Shown here piece after piece: positions 3,732-13,679 of a DNA stretch of 13,679 bases. The stretch comes from Bacteroidota bacterium (GTDB taxonomy: Bacteria; Bacteroidota; Bacteroidia; Chitinophagales; Chitinophagaceae). A program made the translations under genes and the position numbers. The stretch covers positions 1 through 13,679 of the forward strand of contig JAGWPI010000125.1 in assembly GCA_028877005.1 (NCBI GenBank), read 5' to 3'. Under the pieces are notes generated by a model that did no database searches, was not told the origin of the DNA, and saw only the letters and a list, made by a program, of their open reading frames with translations. Each line of letters opens with the position of its first letter. Position 1 is the first letter of the stretch.

Positions 3732-4949
3732 CTAACGGCGCAGTATATTCACAATTTTTAAATCTAATGTTTCCAATGTGCCATTGCGTTGTACAATTAC
3801 TTTAACCCGGCTGCCGGCATTTTGCAACAAGTTTTTAAAGGTTTGAATATTTTGGGTAAATACATTATTCATGGCCACAATAATATCATCGGGCAAAAAC
3901 CCGGCTTTATCGCCCGGCGAGCCGGGCATCACATCAATTACCTTTACTGCCCCGTCTACCCAATAAATGCCCAGGCCGGTATAGGAATAATCGAAGGGGT
4001 CAAAAAAATGGTGATTGGGAACAATATAAATGCTTTTTTCGGCATAATTAAACACGGTATTAAAACGGCGCATGATATCATTGCCCAAAATACCCCCCAG
4101 AAATGGGTAACTGGTTATATTATAATCATCGCTAAAAATGAGCAGGGGAACACGCCTAAACTGATAAGGGCCAATTTTTATTTTTTCGGTTACGGTTAAC
4201 TGCATTTCTTTTTTTCCCCCTAAACCTTCGGCCTGTGTTGGATACATTTTGCGTTTGGTTTTGAGTAAACTGCTGTCTTTTAAAAATTGTTCAGATACTA
4301 AAAAACACAAACCGGCACCGGTATCAAAAATAAACCGACTGAGTATTTTACGTGCATCCGTAATGGTAACAGGCTGGTATACCAAGGAACTAAAACGAGG
4401 ATGTAACATATAACCCCCATTGCCTTTTGGGTATTTAAAAGCACCTTTTGGATAAATACCCAGGGTATGGGTATCATAATCAACACTTACTACATAGCGG
4501 CTAAAGAAGGTGTAACCAATAATACCATCAATTTTTACGCCATACACACTGGTTAACAAATCATAATTATTGATATGAAAATCGAGGCTATCTAATGTAA
4601 AACCCGGAAATTGAAGGCGATGACCATAGGTAAAATCTACCGTTTTAATGCCGGCAATACCCCGAATGGTGCGGTCTGTATGCACCCTATCTAAATGAAA
4701 TTCATCTACCGTAGCCGAGTCGAGTGAGATACCGCCACTACCGGTATCTAAAATAAAATTGAGAGAGTCGGGTAAACTGTCTAATGCGGCTTTTAAAATA
4801 ATGATACCCCCGCTTAATTGTATAAATCCAAAACTGGCCATAGGTGTAGGTAATGACTGTGCAAAAGTTTTGCCAACCGGCGGTGTGGTTTGTGCATGGA
4901 GTTGGGCAACCACACACAGGCATAAACATAATAAACGGAGCTGTTTCAT
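3732..4949 (-). CDS. Exported aspartyl protease (two DTG lobes) with C-terminal PDZ domain
   Basis: A 405-residue secreted protein, probably periplasmic. The ATG at 4949 gives a normal signal peptide (MKQLRLLCLCLCVVAQLHAQ, cleavage near residue 19/20); an upstream in-frame extension to 5003 would put a polar tail ahead of it and is rejected. Two retropepsin/pepsin-like half-sites are visible: FILDTGSGG with Asp68 and FIFDTGAGL with Asp209. Each is followed by a hydrophobic-Gly motif (DGIIGYTFF near 141-149 and GGILGNDIMRRF in the second lobe). Both catalytic aspartates are therefore supplied by one chain, as in pepsin, rather than by a homodimer. A PDZ domain occupies about residues 325-400 (GLGIYW..., VMPGSPGDKAGFLPDDIIVAMN) and probably recognises exposed C-termini or hydrophobic tails. 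Such aspartyl protease-PDZ proteins are common in Bacteroidota, but their substrates are not known. It lies 92 bp upstream of the M16 pair on the same strand. A weak AT-rich inverted repeat (CTGTTTT 3692-3698 / AAAACAG 3724-3730) lies just past its stop. Confidence 0.88.
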   Translation of the reverse strand: MKQLRLLCLCLCVVAQLHAQTTPPVGKTFAQSLPTPMASFGFIQLSGGIIILKAALDSLPDSLNFILDTGSGGISLDSATVDEFHLDRVHTDRTIRGIAGIKTVDFTYGHRLQFPGFTLDSLDFHINNYDLLTSVYGVKIDGIIGYTFFSRYVVSVDYDTHTLGIYPKGAFKYPKGNGGYMLHPRFSSLVYQPVTITDARKILSRFIFDTGAGLCFLVSEQFLKDSSLLKTKRKMYPTQAEGLGGKKEMQLTVTEKIKIGPYQFRRVPLLIFSDDYNITSYPFLGGILGNDIMRRFNTVFNYAEKSIYIVPNHHFFDPFDYSYTGLGIYWVDGAVKVIDVMPGSPGDKAGFLPDDIIVAMNNVFTQNIQTFKNLLQNAGSRVKVIVQRNGTLETLDLKIVNILRR

Positions 4950-4990
4950 GCAGATGGTGTCATCGGTGTTTTTGCGATTCAGGTAATTAT

Positions 4991-5021
4991 TAAATATAAG
5001 CACAATTGCTAATTAATACAA
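4991..5021 (-). promoter_or_regulatory. Candidate Bacteroidota-type promoter for the aspartyl protease gene
   Basis: Read on the minus strand: TTG (5021-5019), a 20-nt spacer, then TATATTTA (4998-4991). This matches the Bacteroidota sigma factor consensus TTTG/TTG, 19-23 nt, TAnnTTTG except for the last base (A for G). The predicted transcript start is near 4985, leaving a leader of about 36 nt before the ATG at 4949. Positions fit well, but the match is imperfect. Confidence 0.5.
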
Positions 5022-7619: not shown

Positions 7620-7768
7620 GAAGCAATATTAAAATTGTTGATAATTGATAGGGAAACGTTCTCACCGCATGCTTACCGCCCTATTACACCACTAAATTAA
7701 GGGAAACAACATCTAAACAGGGGCACGATTTTAATCAGACTTTGTATTTTGTATAAATAAAATAAATA

Positions 7769-7800
7769 TTTGTTATCGGCTGTTCAGGTTTGTATATTTG
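7769..7800 (+). promoter_or_regulatory. Consensus Bacteroidota promoter, distal P1 of kbl region
   Basis: TTTG at 7769-7772, a 20-nt spacer and TATATTTG at 7793-7800 form a perfect match to the TTTG-N(19-21)-TAnnTTTG consensus. The predicted start is near 7806-7808, about 190 nt ahead of the kbl ATG. Such a long leader is unusual here given the 20-nt distance at the proximal core, and suggests a regulated leader or a separate small RNA. Confidence 0.7.
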
Positions 7801-7850
7801 ATGCAGTGGGGTACTATTATTCAACAGACTAGAAGATAGCTGTTATTGAA

Positions 7851-7898
7851 GGCCAATTTTGCTAGCACAAGCACACCAAAAGGATTGGTCAAATTTTT
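7851..7898 (+). terminator. Possible weak terminator/attenuator hairpin in the kbl leader
   Basis: GGCCAAT (7851-7857) can pair with ATTGGTC (7884-7890), giving 7 bp with one G-U pair, a 26-nt loop, and AAATTTTT directly after (7891-7898). The long loop and low GC make it a weak candidate. If real, RNA from the distal promoter would end as a transcript of about 90 nt. Confidence 0.3.
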
Positions 7899-7970
7899 CC
7901 ATTTATACCAATAAGGGTTCGGGATAAAAAGCTAATGTATACAAATGCCTTAGTTGCCATTGGCTTTCCC

Positions 7971-7978
7971 TACCTTTG
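7971..7978 (+). promoter_or_regulatory. Start-proximal promoter core (P2) of kbl
   Basis: TACCTTTG fits TAnnTTTG and ends 20 nt before the kbl ATG, the same distance as in front of mqnC, within the shared sequence CCCTACCTTTGT(C/T)AC. A -33 TTG at the usual distance is lacking: the nearest one upstream (7954-7956) leaves only 14 nt. It may therefore be weaker or need an activator. Confidence 0.5.
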
Positions 7979-7998
7979 TCACCTTAAAAAAATGCACC

Positions 7999-9186
7999 AT
8001 GAACGAACCTTTTGTTGCCCGTATACAGCAGGAGTTAACTGCGATAGCCGAAGCGGGCTTAATGAAGAAAGAACGCATTATTACCAGCGAGCAAGGCGCT
8101 GAAATTATGGTAAATGGACAAAAAGTATTAAACTTTTGTGCCAATAATTATTTGGGTTTATCGGCCCACCCTAAAGTAATAGAAGCGGCACATAAAGCTA
8201 TTGACACGCATGGATATGGCATGAGTAGTGTACGTTTTATTTGTGGCACACAGGATATACACAAAGAACTGGAAACAAAAATTGCCCAATTTTTGGGAAC
8301 AGAAGATACCATTTTATATGCAGCTGCTTTTGATGCCAATGGCGGGGTATTTGAGCCTTTATTTAATGAAGAAGATGCCATTATTAGTGATGCATTGAAC
8401 CATGCTTCTATTATTGATGGTGTGCGACTTTGTAAGGCACAAAGGTTTAGGTATGAGCATAATAATATGGCCGATTTAGAAATACAACTGCAAAAGGTGG
8501 CCGGTTGCCGTAACCGTATTATTGTTACCGATGGCAGTTTTAGCATGGATGGCACTATTGCGCAATTAGATAAAATTTGTGATTTAGCCGATCAATACAA
8601 TGCCATTGTAATGGTAGATGAATGTCATTCATCCGGATTTTTAGGCAAAACAGGCAGGGGCACCCATGAATACCGTGGGGTAATGGGCCGTGTGGATATT
8701 ATTACCGGTACATTGGGAAAAGCATTGGGCGGTGCCAGTGGGGGTTTTACGAGTGGCCGTAAAGCAATAATAGAAATGTTAAGGCAACGGTCTCGCCCCT
8801 ATTTATTCTCCAATACTTTAGCGCCTAGTATTGTTGGCGCCAGTATTGCCGTATTAGACATGTTAACCGAAACCACTGCTTTACGCGATAAACTGGAATA
8901 CAATACCCGCTATTTTAGAACCAAAATGACGGAAGCAGGTTTCGACATTAAGCCCGGAGAACATCCTATTGTTCCAATTATGTTGTATGATGCGGTATTG
9001 GCGCAACAATTTGCCGCTGCCTTATTAGAAGAAGGTGTGTATGTTATTGGATTCTTCTTTCCTGTAGTGCCAAAAGGCCAAGCCAGGATAAGGGTACAAT
9101 TAAGTGCCGCACATGAACAACAACATTTAGACCATGCCATTCAGGCTTTTATTAAAGTGGGTAAAAAATTAAATGTATTAAAATAA
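7999..9186 (+). CDS. kbl: Glycine C-acetyltransferase (2-amino-3-ketobutyrate CoA ligase)
   Basis: Kbl is a PLP enzyme of the alpha-oxoamine synthase family. With threonine dehydrogenase it converts threonine, via 2-amino-3-ketobutyrate and CoA, to glycine and acetyl-CoA; it acts in the cytoplasm. The 395-residue protein has the Kbl-typical blocks FICGTQDIHKELE and FDANGGVFEPLFNEEDAIISDALNHASIIDGVRLCKA, the PLP-contact VDECHSSGFLGKTGRGT, and TGTLGKALGG with Lys241 as the Schiff-base lysine (Lys244 in E. coli Kbl). These blocks separate it from BioF, HemA and serine palmitoyltransferase. The ATG at 7999 is chosen; a TTG 15 codons upstream would place the promoter core inside the gene. No threonine dehydrogenase gene lies nearby. 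The next gene starts 5 bp after the stop, so the two are probably cotranscribed. Confidence 0.94.
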   Translation: MNEPFVARIQQELTAIAEAGLMKKERIITSEQGAEIMVNGQKVLNFCANNYLGLSAHPKVIEAAHKAIDTHGYGMSSVRFICGTQDIHKELETKIAQFLGTEDTILYAAAFDANGGVFEPLFNEEDAIISDALNHASIIDGVRLCKAQRFRYEHNNMADLEIQLQKVAGCRNRIIVTDGSFSMDGTIAQLDKICDLADQYNAIVMVDECHSSGFLGKTGRGTHEYRGVMGRVDIITGTLGKALGGASGGFTSGRKAIIEMLRQRSRPYLFSNTLAPSIVGASIAVLDMLTETTALRDKLEYNTRYFRTKMTEAGFDIKPGEHPIVPIMLYDAVLAQQFAAALLEEGVYVIGFFFPVVPKGQARIRVQLSAAHEQQHLDHAIQAFIKVGKKLNVLK

Positions 9187-9191
9187 AACAT

Positions 9192-10064
9192 ATGCAATTT
9201 GTTCGTCATTGGCTTACCCGGCAGGCGGTTTACGCTTTTGTAAAAATTAGCTTTTGGGTTATTATATCCGGCTTGTTTATGGCCGGTTGCGATACCAATA
9301 ATATTGAAGAGGATGCATCGCTGGGAAACTATTTTACGCAGCAACAAGTAACAGGTAGTTTTGCATTATTAGACAATGGTAGGGGTAGTTTTACCATGTA
9401 TCATTTAAAAAGATACAAGGATTCGGCCTATCAGCCGGCTGCTACCTTTAATATTGTAAATGCATTAGTGGGCTTACAAGTGGGCACCATTGCCAATGAA
9501 AGGATGACGATACCCTGGGATGGACAGATTAGAAAATATGCCAATGGCGATACCGCTGCTGCTTGGAATAAAACCCTTTCGTTTGATACTGCCTTCAGCA
9601 CCAATGCCATCCCGTATTTTCAGGAAATTGCCAGAAGAACGGGTAAAGAAAAATTGCAGTATTGGTTAGATAGTTTACATTATGGCAACCACCAAATTGG
9701 GAATAGCGTAGATAGTTTTTGGATGAATAATACACTAACCATTAGTGCCGACGAACAGTTGGGTTTAATAAAACGGCTATATTTTGGACAGCTGCCCTTT
9801 GATAAAACTTGGCAAATACTTGTAAAAAAATTATTAATAAAACAAAGTAATGCCAACTACCAATTGGCCTATATTAATGGAGAAGGTATTTTACCTAACC
9901 AAAACAGCATTGGTTGGGTATTGGGTTGGGTAGAAGAAAATAAGCACCCTTATTTCTTTGTTTTGAACATAGAAGGTGCCGCTAATAAGCCTTTACAAAA
10001 TACCGGCCCGGCAATGGCGCAAGGTATTTTAACCCAACTTGGATTTTTGAAAGGCAAGAAATAG
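9192..10064 (+). CDS. Lipoprotein with class D beta-lactamase-like domain lacking all catalytic residues
   Basis: A 290-residue protein with an N-terminal hydrophobic segment and a lipobox-like FMAGC (Cys33), so probably a lipoprotein facing the periplasm. Residues about 53-285 follow the class D (OXA) beta-lactamase/penicillin-binding plan: TGSFALLDN..., YQPAATFNIVNALVGL (80-95), WDGQIR (109-114), NAIPYFQEIARRTG (138-151), YGN (164-166), SVDSFW (172-177), ISADEQLGLIKRLYFGQLPF (184-203), and IGWVLGWVEENKHPYFFVLN (240-259). By comparison with the S-T-F-K motif of OXA enzymes, the nucleophile Ser is Ala84 and the carboxylated Lys is Asn87. The Ser of the S-x-V motif is Asn138 and K-T-G reads I-N-G (228-230). 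The scaffold is retained but the active site is gone, and the frame is fully intact. Beta-lactamase or transpeptidase activity is therefore not expected; a binding or structural role is inferred. It follows kbl by 5 bp and precedes batB by 58 bp. Confidence 0.8.
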   Translation: MQFVRHWLTRQAVYAFVKISFWVIISGLFMAGCDTNNIEEDASLGNYFTQQQVTGSFALLDNGRGSFTMYHLKRYKDSAYQPAATFNIVNALVGLQVGTIANERMTIPWDGQIRKYANGDTAAAWNKTLSFDTAFSTNAIPYFQEIARRTGKEKLQYWLDSLHYGNHQIGNSVDSFWMNNTLTISADEQLGLIKRLYFGQLPFDKTWQILVKKLLIKQSNANYQLAYINGEGILPNQNSIGWVLGWVEENKHPYFFVLNIEGAANKPLQNTGPAMAQGILTQLGFLKGKK

Positions 10065-10122
10065 TGCCAACTATCCATAATTTAGTTTTTCCTTTTTAAT
10101 AGTAACCTGTAGCTTGCAGCAC

Positions 10123-11178
10123 ATGGTACATTTTAGTCAACAACAACATTTATGGGCACTAACACTGCTTATTCCGTTAGCAATTGCTTATGTGTTTGCT
10201 ATACGGTACAAGCGCCGTATTAGAAAAATGTTGGGTAATACCCAATTGGTGCAACAACTAACCAATAATTATCTACCCAAAAGGTATGGATTAAAAATGG
10301 TGCTTTTATTGTTGGCTATTGTTTTATTAGTATTGGCATGGGCCAATCTGCGAAAACCTTTATTAGAAAAAGGAGGTAAAGGCAATGGTATAGATGTAAT
10401 GCTGGTTTTAGATGTTAGTAAAAGTATGCTTAGTCAGGATGTACCACCCAGTCGTTTAGATAAAGCAAAAACCTTTTTAAATGCATTAACGCCTGCAATA
10501 GAACACAACCGCATAGGCTTAGTTATTTTTGCAGGGGAGGCTTATTTGCAAATGCCATTAACACCCGATGCCGTTGCCACAAAATTATTTATAGACAACG
10601 CATCGCCCGATTTGGCGCCTATACAAGGCACCAATATTGGTGCAGCCCTTAGATTAGCCGATGCTTCGTTAGATGATAAAGAAAAAAAATATAAAGCCAT
10701 TGTATTGGTTACCGATGGAGAAGATTTAGATGCAGGTGCTAAAGCGGCCGCTGAAAAACTAGCAGAAAATGGCACGGTTTTATACACTGTTGGGGTGGGA
10801 ACAGACGGTGGTGCCCCTATTATGGAGAATGGTTCTTATAAAAAAGATGCCAATGGTAAAACAGTGATTTCAAAATTAGATGCCCCACTATTGCAACAAT
10901 TAGCCGCAGAAACAGAAGGAAAGTATTATTTTTTAGATGATACCAATCAAATAGCTAATACAATTGCTGCTCAACTTAATAATATGCAAACCAAACCATT
11001 GAATAACAATGGCGGTTATAGAGACTATACATTATATTATGGGCTATTCTTATCACTAGCATTTGTATTACTTTTACTGGATATATTAATTGCTGAGAAG
11101 AAAAAAGGCAAAACGGTTATTGGTTATTTACAATCCCATCAATCAGAAAAAAAGAGTAACCAACCAGTACATATGTAA
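10123..11178 (+). CDS. batB: BatB-like membrane protein with von Willebrand factor A domain
   Basis: A 351-residue inner-membrane protein of the Bat (Bacteroides aerotolerance) group. Two membrane helices lie near the N-terminus (about 10-27 and 57-73), followed by a periplasmic or membrane-adjacent VWA domain (about 88-285) and a last helix (about 302-321). The MIDAS metal site is complete: D97-V-S99-K-S101 (LVLDVSKSM), the Thr in PIQGTNIGAAL, and the TDGED loop. Metal-dependent VWA domains of this type bind protein partners, and Bat proteins work with MoxR AAA ATPases; their exact role in oxidative stress or envelope maturation is unsettled. The ATG at 10123 is preferred over a TTG three codons upstream. 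The batC-like gene begins 2 bp after the stop. Which of batA or batB it is cannot be proven, but the following TPR gene favours batB. No moxR, DUF58, batD or batE gene is in this window. Confidence 0.83.
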   Translation: MVHFSQQQHLWALTLLIPLAIAYVFAIRYKRRIRKMLGNTQLVQQLTNNYLPKRYGLKMVLLLLAIVLLVLAWANLRKPLLEKGGKGNGIDVMLVLDVSKSMLSQDVPPSRLDKAKTFLNALTPAIEHNRIGLVIFAGEAYLQMPLTPDAVATKLFIDNASPDLAPIQGTNIGAALRLADASLDDKEKKYKAIVLVTDGEDLDAGAKAAAEKLAENGTVLYTVGVGTDGGAPIMENGSYKKDANGKTVISKLDAPLLQQLAAETEGKYYFLDDTNQIANTIAAQLNNMQTKPLNNNGGYRDYTLYYGLFLSLAFVLLLLDILIAEKKKGKTVIGYLQSHQSEKKSNQPVHM

Positions 11179-11180
11179 CC

Positions 11181-11768
11181 ATGAAAATAATTTTTACCAT
11201 ATTAACCGGCATGTTACTGTTTTTGCAAGCTGCTGCGCAAAATAAACAGGATGATGCACTGCTGTATAAAGCCAATTTATTATACCAATCTGGCAACTAT
11301 ACTGCGGCACAGGAATTATATGATAAAGTGTTAGAACACAATCCCAATAACAGCATTGCTTTATTTAATAAGGCCAATGCTTTGCAACAACAAAAAAATT
11401 ATGAAGCAGCAGCCAAGCAATTTCAACAAGCTGCTTTAGCAAGCAATAATCCTACTTTAAAAGCAAAGGCTTTATATAATTCAGGGGTGGCGGCCATCAA
11501 ACAACAACAATTGAATGATGCCATTAATGCATTTAAAGAAAGTTTATTAATTAATCCGAATAATGACTCATCACGCAACAATTTACAAAAAGCCTTAAAT
11601 GAACAAAAAAAGAATGAACAGCAAAACAAACAACAAAAACCAAACAAAAATCCCTTAAACAAACAACAGGCAGATAACTTACTGAATCAACTGCGCCAAC
11701 AGGAAAAAGAATTACAGCAATACGAAAAACAAAAAATAAAACCTGTAAATACGGAAAAAGATTGGTAA
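11181..11768 (+). CDS. batC: BatC-like TPR protein, exported
   Basis: A 195-residue protein with a signal peptide (MKIIFTILTGMLLFLQAAAQ, cleavage near residue 19-20). About three tetratricopeptide repeats follow, at roughly 24-57, 58-90 and 91-129, with typical small/large packing residues (LYKANLLYQSGNYTAAQELYDKVLEHNPNN and the two units after it). Residues 130-165 are a low-complexity K/Q/N linker, followed by ADNLLNQLRQQEKELQQYEKQK, a helical end typical of BatC proteins. BatC is thought to act as a periplasmic scaffold for the Bat VWA proteins. It starts 2 bp after the batB-like gene, so the two are translationally close and surely one operon. No independent promoter is visible. The low-complexity tail is not evidence of foreign DNA, since its codon use matches the neighbours. 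Confidence 0.8.
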   Translation: MKIIFTILTGMLLFLQAAAQNKQDDALLYKANLLYQSGNYTAAQELYDKVLEHNPNNSIALFNKANALQQQKNYEAAAKQFQQAALASNNPTLKAKALYNSGVAAIKQQQLNDAINAFKESLLINPNNDSSRNNLQKALNEQKKNEQQNKQQKPNKNPLNKQQADNLLNQLRQQEKELQQYEKQKIKPVNTEKDW

Positions 11769-11820
11769 CAACTTTTGGTACAACAATTTGTTTTTTATAA
11801 CAGGTAATAAAATATTTATT

Positions 11821-13679
11821 ATGCAACTTTATTGTAACAGTTTAACCCAATACGGTCGTTTAAAAACAAGGGAAGTAAAAATTGGAGATTTGTTATTGGG
11901 TAACGGGCATCCTATTCGCATACAAACAATGACGACTACCAATACAATGGATACTATAGCTACAGTAGAACAAGCTATTCGTTGTATTGAAGCAGGAGCA
12001 GAATTGGTGAGAATTACCGCACCTTCTAAAAATGAAGCAGAAAATTTACTGAATATCAAAAATGAATTACGTAAACGAGGTTACACCACCCCACTGGTTG
12101 CCGATATTCATTTTACACCTAATGCAGCAGAAATAGCTGCTAAAATTGTAGAAAAAGTTCGTATTAACCCGGGCAATTATGTTGATAAAAAGAAATTTGA
12201 ACAACTTGAATACACCGATGCAGAATATGCGGAAGAAATAGAACGAATTCGTGAAAGATTTACACCACTAGTTAATATTTGTAAGGAATATGGTACCGCC
12301 ATGCGCATTGGCACCAATCATGGTTCATTAAGCGATAGAATTATGAGCCGCTATGGCGATACACCTATTGGCATGGTAGAAAGTGCGATGGAGTTTTTAA
12401 GGATAGCCCGAAGTGTAAACTACCACAATATTGTATTGAGTATGAAATCGAGTAATCCACAAGTAATGGTGCAGGCTTACCGATTATTGATACAACAAAT
12501 GATGGCAGAGTTTGATGAATGTTACCCTTTACACTTGGGCGTTACTGAAGCCGGTGATGGTGAAGATGGACGTATGAAAAGTGCTGCGGGAATTGGTACT
12601 TTATTAGAAGATGGCATAGGCGATACTATTAGAGTTTCATTAACCGAAGACCCTGAATTTGAAATACCTGTTTGTCGCGATTTGGTGAAACGCTATACGG
12701 ATAATGTTAGTACCAAAAATACTATTCCCGCCGTTACCACTATTCCTTATAATCCTTTTCAATATAAACGGAGGAATAGTTTTAATGTAATGAATGTGGG
12801 AAGCCAACATGTGCCTGTTGTAATTGCCGATTTTAGTAAAATGGATTCTATAACGCCAGAGCATTTATGTAGTATTGGTTATACGTATGATGCAAAAACC
12901 GACAAATGGAATATTAGTGATGCTGCTGCCGATTATATTTTTACAGGACACCAGCTATTAAACTTTGAACTACCAGGTACTTTACAGGTTATTTGTTATC
13001 CAGCTACCTGGGCATTAGCCAATGATAAAAACAAGTATCATCCTGTATTTAGCGGTTCCGGTTATTTACAGGCAAAGAAGAGAGATGCTCATATAAATTT
13101 TGTATTAATTGATTGTTTTAGTGATGACACTTCAATAAATGATTATACCTATTTAACTGAACTAGAAAATGACCCATCGGTGGTATTGTGCTTAACTAGC
13201 AAAAATGAGCACACAATGCCAGCCTTACGCAGAATGGCAATAGAATTAATGAACAGAAATATTTCAAATCCAATTATACTGAATATTAACAGTCAATGGA
13301 ATACCGTTGATGAACATTTAATTCATTATGCCACTACAGCCGGTGCACTTTTATTAGATGGTATGGGTGACGGACTATGGTTGGAAATAGAACAACAACA
13401 ATATAATAATTTAGCACAAAACAACACAGCTGCCAGTGGCAGAAATTATGTTCAAAATACCAGCGTAGAAGCCTTTTTAAATAATACAGCATTTGGGATT
13501 TTACAAGCCACCCGTTGCAGAATTTCTAAAACAGAGTACATATCTTGTCCTAGTTGCGGCCGAACACTATTTGATTTACAGGAAACTACCGCACAAATAA
13601 GAGCTAAAACGCACCACTTAAAAGGTGTAAAAATAGCTATTATGGGTTGTATTGTAAATGGCCCCGGAGAAATGGCCGA
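11821..13679 (+). CDS. ispG: 4-hydroxy-3-methylbut-2-enyl diphosphate synthase IspG, three-domain type (cut by window end)
   Basis: IspG (GcpE) is the iron-sulfur enzyme that reductively converts MEcPP to HMBPP in the MEP isoprenoid pathway. The frame is open from the ATG at 11821 to the window end (619 full codons) with no stop. The N-terminal TIM barrel carries GHPIRIQTMTTTNTMDT, ADIHFTPNAAEIAA, KVRINPGNY, MRIGTNHGSLSDRIMSRYGD and LHLGVTEAGDGEDGRMKSAAGIG. A long insert (about residues 290-540) separates it from the C-terminal [4Fe-4S] domain, marked by SCPSCGR (Cys576, Cys579) and GCIVNGPGE (Cys610 and the following Glu). This large form is known from plants, Chlamydia and Bacteroidota; the E. 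coli type lacks the insert. Only the last residues are missing. It starts 52 bp after batC; that gap is AT-rich with no clear promoter box, so read-through from the bat genes is possible. Confidence 0.94.
   Translation, partial: MQLYCNSLTQYGRLKTREVKIGDLLLGNGHPIRIQTMTTTNTMDTIATVEQAIRCIEAGAELVRITAPSKNEAENLLNIKNELRKRGYTTPLVADIHFTPNAAEIAAKIVEKVRINPGNYVDKKKFEQLEYTDAEYAEEIERIRERFTPLVNICKEYGTAMRIGTNHGSLSDRIMSRYGDTPIGMVESAMEFLRIARSVNYHNIVLSMKSSNPQVMVQAYRLLIQQMMAEFDECYPLHLGVTEAGDGEDGRMKSAAGIGTLLEDGIGDTIRVSLTEDPEFEIPVCRDLVKRYTDNVSTKNTIPAVTTIPYNPFQYKRRNSFNVMNVGSQHVPVVIADFSKMDSITPEHLCSIGYTYDAKTDKWNISDAAADYIFTGHQLLNFELPGTLQVICYPATWALANDKNKYHPVFSGSGYLQAKKRDAHINFVLIDCFSDDTSINDYTYLTELENDPSVVLCLTSKNEHTMPALRRMAIELMNRNISNPIILNINSQWNTVDEHLIHYATTAGALLLDGMGDGLWLEIEQQQYNNLAQNNTAASGRNYVQNTSVEAFLNNTAFGILQATRCRISKTEYISCPSCGRTLFDLQETTAQIRAKTHHLKGVKIAIMGCIVNGPGEMA

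Follow-up and report, generated by a model that had tools for sequence, protein, structure and literature searches.

The window analyzed here, a 13,679-nucleotide stretch of contig JAGWPI010000125.1 (GenBank assembly GCA_028877005.1) from a Hydrotalea genome in the family Chitinophagaceae, carries at 9192..10064 on the plus strand a gene for a class D beta-lactamase-fold lipoprotein that is predicted to be catalytically dead. The open reading frame (ORF) begins with ATG and encodes 290 residues without an internal stop. The NCBIfam model bla_class_D_main matched the protein at 1e-53 and 182 bits, short of the 250 bits that serve as its equivalog cut-off, and the best solved relatives in a search of Protein Data Bank (PDB) sequences were 7k3m (E 1e-64) and 8ep6 (E 4e-64), both representing Cpin_0907 of Chitinophaga pinensis. 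The predicted model and its structural fold matches support an OXA fold; by fold and sequence, the protein is a member of the class D family. Residues 1-33 (9192..9290, plus strand), read by eye, form a lipoprotein signal peptide that ends at the lipobox Cys33, a residue found in 139 of the 140 copies of the window's phylogenetic group (see below). The preliminary description, made from the sequence alone, had reported an intact frame, an OXA fold, and a set of scaffold motifs, all of which we recovered: WDG (109-111), YGN (164-166; 9681..9689), Phe176-Trp177 (9717..9722), and the GWVLGWVE strand (241-248).

The active site is a different matter. Alignments to 7k3m and to a chain of the OXA-10 family bore out the earlier claim that the catalytic residues are replaced: on the plus strand, the former S-x-x-K is Ala84-Thr-Phe-Asn87 (9441..9452), the former S-x-V is Asn138-Ala-Ile (9603..9611), and the former KTG is Ile228-Asn-Gly230 (9873..9881), followed by Glu231 in all four Hydrotalea genomes. 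The Ser and the carboxylated Lys that characterize class D enzymes are both missing, as are S-x-V and KTG. Codon 272 (10005..10007) encodes Gly in place of an Arg that is present in 95% of the 114 intact copies (those with both Ser84 and Lys87) of the window's group. When an active relative was aligned with an OXA-10 variant, this column matched the Arg of the OXA-10 "LRKS" stretch, which we take to be Arg250, a residue that binds the substrate carboxylate. The counterpart of Trp177 in the alignment is the Trp in the "KFW" stretch of OXA-10 type, presumably Trp154; Trp158 was considered as the equivalent and rejected on the alignment, and the letters at position 158 serve only as a group marker. 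The Hydrotalea protein resembles Cpin_0907 in sequence (42-43% identity), fold, the NNV/NNI start of the mature protein, and the GW..GW.EEN.HP strand, but Cpin_0907 keeps STFK, SAV, and KTG, whereas the Hydrotalea protein has none of the three. Unlike OXA-10 and OXA-48, it has lost the catalytic Ser and Lys, the S-x-V Ser, KTG, and the residue at the presumed Arg250 position.

The replacements are fixed in the sampled Hydrotalea genomes while the gene remains under selection

Four Hydrotalea genomes were sampled (G000-G003, the window's own among them), and the frame is open in each. Ala84, Asn87, and Ile228 are identical in all four, and the genomes of two named isolates, H. flava CCUG 51397 and H. 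sandarakina DSM 23241, show the replacements too. The preliminary description had proposed looking for conservation of Ala84, Asn87, and Asn138 among orthologues; the first two were conserved throughout the genus, whereas Asn138 varies and most relatives outside the genus are intact. Among the best 120 of 1220 protein matches, Ser84 was present in 116 and Lys87 in 115, and only P0001-P0004 lacked Ser84, Lys87, Ser138, and Lys228 together; P0001 is the window's own protein, and P0002 and P0003 are named Hydrotalea. No second class D gene that could act as a backup was found, the window protein matching once in each of the four Hydrotalea genomes (E <= 0.001).

The ratio of nonsynonymous to synonymous substitution rates (dN/dS), calculated by NG86 with the signal region excluded, ranged from 0.05 to 0.18 over the six Hydrotalea pairs (dN 0.074-0.236, dS 0.84-2.39), and it was 0.11 for the pair of lowest dS (L005-L006, dS 0.84). 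Six neighboring genes in the same genomes gave 0.02-0.14 where measurable; the values for the downstream neighbor with a von Willebrand factor A (vWA) domain, 0.10-0.14, are close to those of the OXA-like gene. Such low ratios reveal the purifying selection for which the preliminary description had suggested a check, and they led us to reject recent pseudogenisation in Hydrotalea. The changes are also concentrated in the active site. At a conservation threshold of 90% across the 114 intact group copies there are 83 positions, of which 11 are replaced in all four Hydrotalea proteins; at a threshold of 97% there are 46, of which six are so replaced, and four of these six are Ser84, Lys87, Ser138, and Lys228 (hypergeometric p = 9e-5). 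The loss in Hydrotalea targets the chemistry and largely spares the scaffold. With an enzyme fold, replaced catalytic residues, and a gene under selection, the protein fits the description of a pseudoenzyme, and the earlier view that selection kept the fold and not the chemistry holds.

The active site was lost repeatedly among relatives

A match to the window protein was found in 184 of 195 Chitinophagaceae genomes (164 of the 166 of high quality), mostly one per genome, and in 47 of 149 genomes of an order-level sample, where 18 of the matching genomes belong to the window's family and the rest matched at E 3e-46 or worse. For comparison, we assembled 181 copies (the window and 180 loci, of which L137 ends at a contig edge); the weakly matching family genomes G014, G077, G101, and G185, extra second matches, and the fragment L034 stand outside this set. 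We term "dead" any copy that lacks Ser84 and/or Lys87; 154 copies have both residues and 27 are dead. A tree split the 181 copies into the window's group (140 copies, 26 dead) and another group from the same bacterial family (41 copies, 1 dead), the latter exemplified by L164, L177, and L191. This difference in dead copies gave a Fisher p of 0.011 for rows that are not independent of one another. Neither kbl, which lies upstream of the OXA-like gene in the window, nor the vWA gene occurs in the examined flank of any of the 41 copies of the other group, a flank as short as 1.3 kb in many of them. The other group apparently stands in for the window's group in the genomes that have it, and the figure of 184 of 195 genomes therefore counts a class D lipoprotein of either group, not of the window's group alone.

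With the active-site columns left out of the tree, the dead or intact state needs at least 11 changes, and the dead copies fall into 15 maximal clades, of which 14 lie within the window's group. An approximately unbiased (AU) test was applied to 39 hand-chosen rows (9 dead, 30 intact) that omit the other dead rows, including long-branch ones; on this subset the state needs six changes, and a tree constrained to unite the nine dead rows is worse by 201 log units (p-AU 0.00026). In a further tree, a Flavitalea/Puia-like dead clade groups with the intact L022 and L024 (support 95/89), and dead L016 groups with intact L013 (support 99/90), both away from Hydrotalea. Dead and Ser/Lys-bearing copies occur side by side in five genera, although the Ser/Lys-bearing copy of one (g65) has lost S-x-V and KTG, and in another (g94) both copies fall within the other group. 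The g65 copy in question, L203 (SK/D/VTG), is the sister of L200, a fully dead copy, and is perhaps an intermediate stage of loss. A search with a Flavitalea copy returned 3031 matches, and 98 of the 120 listed were dead and 22 intact. The Flavitalea protein P0196 was modeled with an OXA fold (pLDDT 82.2, TM 0.93 to 7k3m). Among 30 rows counted separately from the 181 copies and partially overlapping them (L005-L033 and the window), 13 have Ser and Lys and 17 are dead. The named loci, the Flavitalea search, and the family sample together reject a single loss confined to Hydrotalea; Ser and/or Lys have been lost several times independently. Intact orthologues accompanied by scattered decay of this copy had been named as evidence against the preliminary description. 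Such orthologues do exist outside the genus, but the window copy shows no decay.

Over the 14 dead clades of the group, each scored by one representative, retention was 0.21 for Ser84, 0.07 for Lys87, 0.43 for Ser138, 0.36 for Lys228, 0.50 for Thr229, 0.64 for Gly230, and 0.14 for Arg272. The mean over these seven catalytic or substrate-binding positions, two of which (Ser84 and Lys87) themselves define the dead state, was 0.34 compared to 0.78 for 76 other conserved positions (Mann-Whitney U test, p = 0.00013). The loop around Trp109, Asp110, and Arg114 was also often lost in dead clades, as were Asp128, Met131, Ile93, and Ala83. Residues kept in all 26 dead group copies include Trp242, Gly245, Trp246, Glu248, Phe256, Asp187, Glu188, Gly191, Phe203, Leu280, and Tyr164, and Trp177 is kept in 25 of the 26. 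Of the 13 dead clades that lost Lys87, 12 have one or more members with Asn or Asp in its place (Asn only in eight, compared to an expectation of 2/7 for one-step changes; binomial p = 0.013); among the listed matches to the Flavitalea copy, 89 of the 98 dead ones have Asp87. Because Asn or Asp recurs in so many clades, the replacement at position 87 is probably constrained, and its appearance in separate lineages looks convergent from the alignment. Other shifts shared by dead copies are Gly83 (14 of 26) and Phe143 (18 of 26).

The gene adjoins part of a split Bat-like set

The OXA-like gene is preceded on the plus strand by kbl (glycine C-acetyltransferase, 7954..9186; TIGR01822), which ends 5 bases before its start. 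It is followed, 49 bases beyond its stop, by the listed frame of a vWA protein of BatA/BatB type (10114..11178, plus strand; PF13519/PF00092), for which the best NCBIfam match was BatB_Lepto (126 bits, under the cut-off of 350), and then by a BatC-like tetratricopeptide repeat (TPR) protein (11181..11768, plus strand), which matched TPR families and BatC_Lepto (46.9 bits, under the cut-off of 175). An aspartyl-protease-like protein with a C-terminal PDZ domain (3732-5003, minus strand; PF13650, PF17820) is conserved in the three other Hydrotalea loci. The order kbl, OXA-like, vWA, TPR is kept in those three genomes, and the genes upstream of kbl follow the window's order to the ends of the loci. 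A scan of 7700-11900 revealed no terminator-like site on the plus strand from kbl to the vWA gene, which fits one transcript and lends that idea weak support; a promoter scan of the same interval was at chance level (16 found, 16.0 expected). Both flanking genes are recurrent neighbors. Within the window's group, 134 copies have enough flank, and 98 of these carry the vWA gene downstream, its product and the TPR neighbor scoring under the curated Bat cut-offs; kbl and/or the vWA gene lies beside 98 of the 114 intact copies and 17 of the 26 dead ones. MoxR is encoded elsewhere in all four Hydrotalea genomes, and in three of these its contig also carries a second vWA gene. A BatD-type protein is encoded in three of the four, and in two cases its gene shares a contig with the OXA-like gene, some 41-42 kb away. 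Because the MoxR and BatD-type genes lie apart from the vWA-TPR pair, the Bat-like set is split in Hydrotalea.

These neighbors resemble the BatA/BatB and BatC members of the Bacteroides aerotolerance (Bat) proteins, although to our knowledge no OXA-like lipoprotein belongs to the Bat set. In Leptospira biflexa, deletion of bat genes reportedly gave no growth, morphology, or oxidative phenotype (PMC3557215).

Possible roles of the catalytically dead lipoprotein

We tentatively favor the view that the protein is a class D pseudoenzyme, as predicted from its residues, that retains a second, non-catalytic job which the ancestral lipoprotein already had on the periplasmic face of the membrane. Selection would preserve this job while the enzyme function could be shed, and a protein without acylatable residues should undergo no acylation and thus perform neither hydrolysis nor BlaR1-type sensing. 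That the job predates the losses is suggested because the gene often sheds its chemistry without being lost itself. The job would most likely be protein-protein contact in the envelope, with the BatB-like vWA and BatC-like TPR proteins as candidate partners; as KTG and Arg272 are also gone in Hydrotalea, contact with a protein seems likelier there than continued binding of the old ligand. Possible, though more doubtful, is the specific proposal that this widespread Chitinophagaceae lipoprotein, at present labeled "class D beta-lactamase", serves a split Bat-like envelope system of vWA and TPR proteins as a structural or regulatory partner. Beta-lactam chemistry would then be an optional side activity that was discarded independently perhaps ten times, each loss leaving a dedicated partner without catalysis.

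Several observations weigh against this interpretation. Gene order is the sole ground for putting the Bat-like neighbors forward as first candidate partners, and the downstream vWA gene accompanies dead copies (15 of 25) somewhat less often than intact copies (83 of 109). With 41 of the 181 copies in the other group, the window's group is not universal in the family. Within Hydrotalea, position 138 is Asn, Asn, Ala, and Asn, position 229 is Asn, Asn, Asp, and Thr, and position 272 is Gly, Gly, Gly, and Asn across the four genomes. Nor is the site always dismantled: the 120 listed Flavitalea-query matches have Lys228 in 116, Thr229 in 102, and Ser138 in 78 cases. The number of losses is uncertain, as several dead rows sit on long branches. 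Finally, two of the six maximum likelihood estimates of dN/dS in Hydrotalea were unusable, one with a dS of 7.1 and the other, for L005-L007, giving 0.253/0.238 compared to 0.218/1.314 by NG86; we take both to be optimizer failures at saturated dS.

The same residue patterns can be read in other ways. It is possible, if somewhat unlikely, that the altered pocket holds a muropeptide, cell-wall fragment, or anion non-covalently and that the protein serves as a sensor or carrier that needs no acylation. Retention of Trp177 and Tyr164 in the dead group copies, the seemingly non-random choice of Asn or Asp at position 87, the survival of much of the old binding apparatus in the Flavitalea-query matches just described, and the new Glu231 fixed in Hydrotalea are all consistent with such binding. 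The Hydrotalea proteins have nevertheless also lost KTG and Arg272, the latter and Lys228 being poorly retained over the 14 dead clades, and the pocket residues vary among dead lineages, which implies no common ligand. Ligand binding may persist in dead lineages that mostly keep KTG, chiefly those of the Flavitalea/Puia matches. New chemistry on the scaffold, built around residues such as Glu231, His71, and Asn87, appears improbable. All four Hydrotalea proteins carry Glu231 and His71 where the consensus of relatives has other residues, Glu231 is also found in the dead copies L193 and L206, and the shifts to Gly83 and Phe143 are shared; yet there is no evident nucleophile-base pair, those shifts are conservative and stem partly from relatedness, and two invariant residues are unremarkable when 160 of 257 positions are invariant across the four Hydrotalea proteins.

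The long stem branch of Hydrotalea (0.94-1.05) could instead reflect slow decay, in which a useless enzyme gene drifts toward a pseudogene. Outside Hydrotalea, two dead pairs were measurable by NG86 and gave dN/dS of 0.07 and 0.17 (three others were saturated), compared to 0.02-0.10 for intact pairs chosen alongside, eight of 11 of which were measurable. This explanation has little to recommend it, since the six Hydrotalea pairs remain far under 1 at dS near or above 1, the frames are open in all four genomes, and the scaffold is kept while the catalytic residues change; for Hydrotalea, slow decay is nearly excluded. A BlaR1 model did score the window protein at 5.5e-40, the same fold being part of that model, and the sensor domains of BlaR1 and MecR1 share a class D-like periplasmic fold. 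Fused to a membrane protease, these domains still have the acylated Ser and the Lys, whereas the window protein lacks an acylatable Ser84 as well as Lys87, has lost KTG, and is a stand-alone frame of 290 residues without the BlaR1-like membrane protease part. A penicillin sensor of this type, or a weak beta-lactamase working by another route, is thus the least credible of the alternatives, and with Ser84 and Lys87 absent, acylation-based sensing is very unlikely, as the preliminary description had argued.

Pseudoenzymes are already known as a kind; among the titles and beginnings of abstracts that our searches of open-licence papers brought up, none described an inactive class D homologue or family, recurrent loss in this one, or this gene in Hydrotalea or Chitinophagaceae. 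The closest parallel is an inactive class A homologue from Burkholderia ambifaria (PDB 5IHV), described among an "inactive beta-lactamase group" (PMC12073871), which likewise has a beta-lactamase fold with nucleophile and base replaced. It is not of class D, and the available part of PMC12073871 treats two structures rather than recurrent loss in one gene family. If the lipoprotein is indeed a partner of the Bat-like system, its relatives would offer a natural replicate series of enzyme-to-pseudoenzyme conversion in one antibiotic-resistance fold, and the poorly understood Bat-like proteins would gain a possible partner. The conserved function of the lipoprotein may not be drug resistance alone. 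Class D beta-lactamases are watched as resistance genes, and here a selected member predicted to be non-catalytic occurs in all sampled genomes of one genus; fold-based annotation inflates resistance-gene counts in such cases. Two dead copies, P0003 of H. flava and P0230, are publicly labeled "class D beta-lactamase".

Other proteins with related domains were seen in the same genomes. PF00905 matched three long frames of penicillin-binding-protein type in each of G001-G003, and two plus one weak match under the cut-off in G000; it also weakly matched a frame of 327-384 residues in three of the four Hydrotalea genomes. In the window's genome, the one such frame that was read (L223:327-1391, minus strand) by eye looks to encode a class A-like serine beta-lactamase-fold protein in which S-M-V-K, SDN, and KNG are apparently intact.
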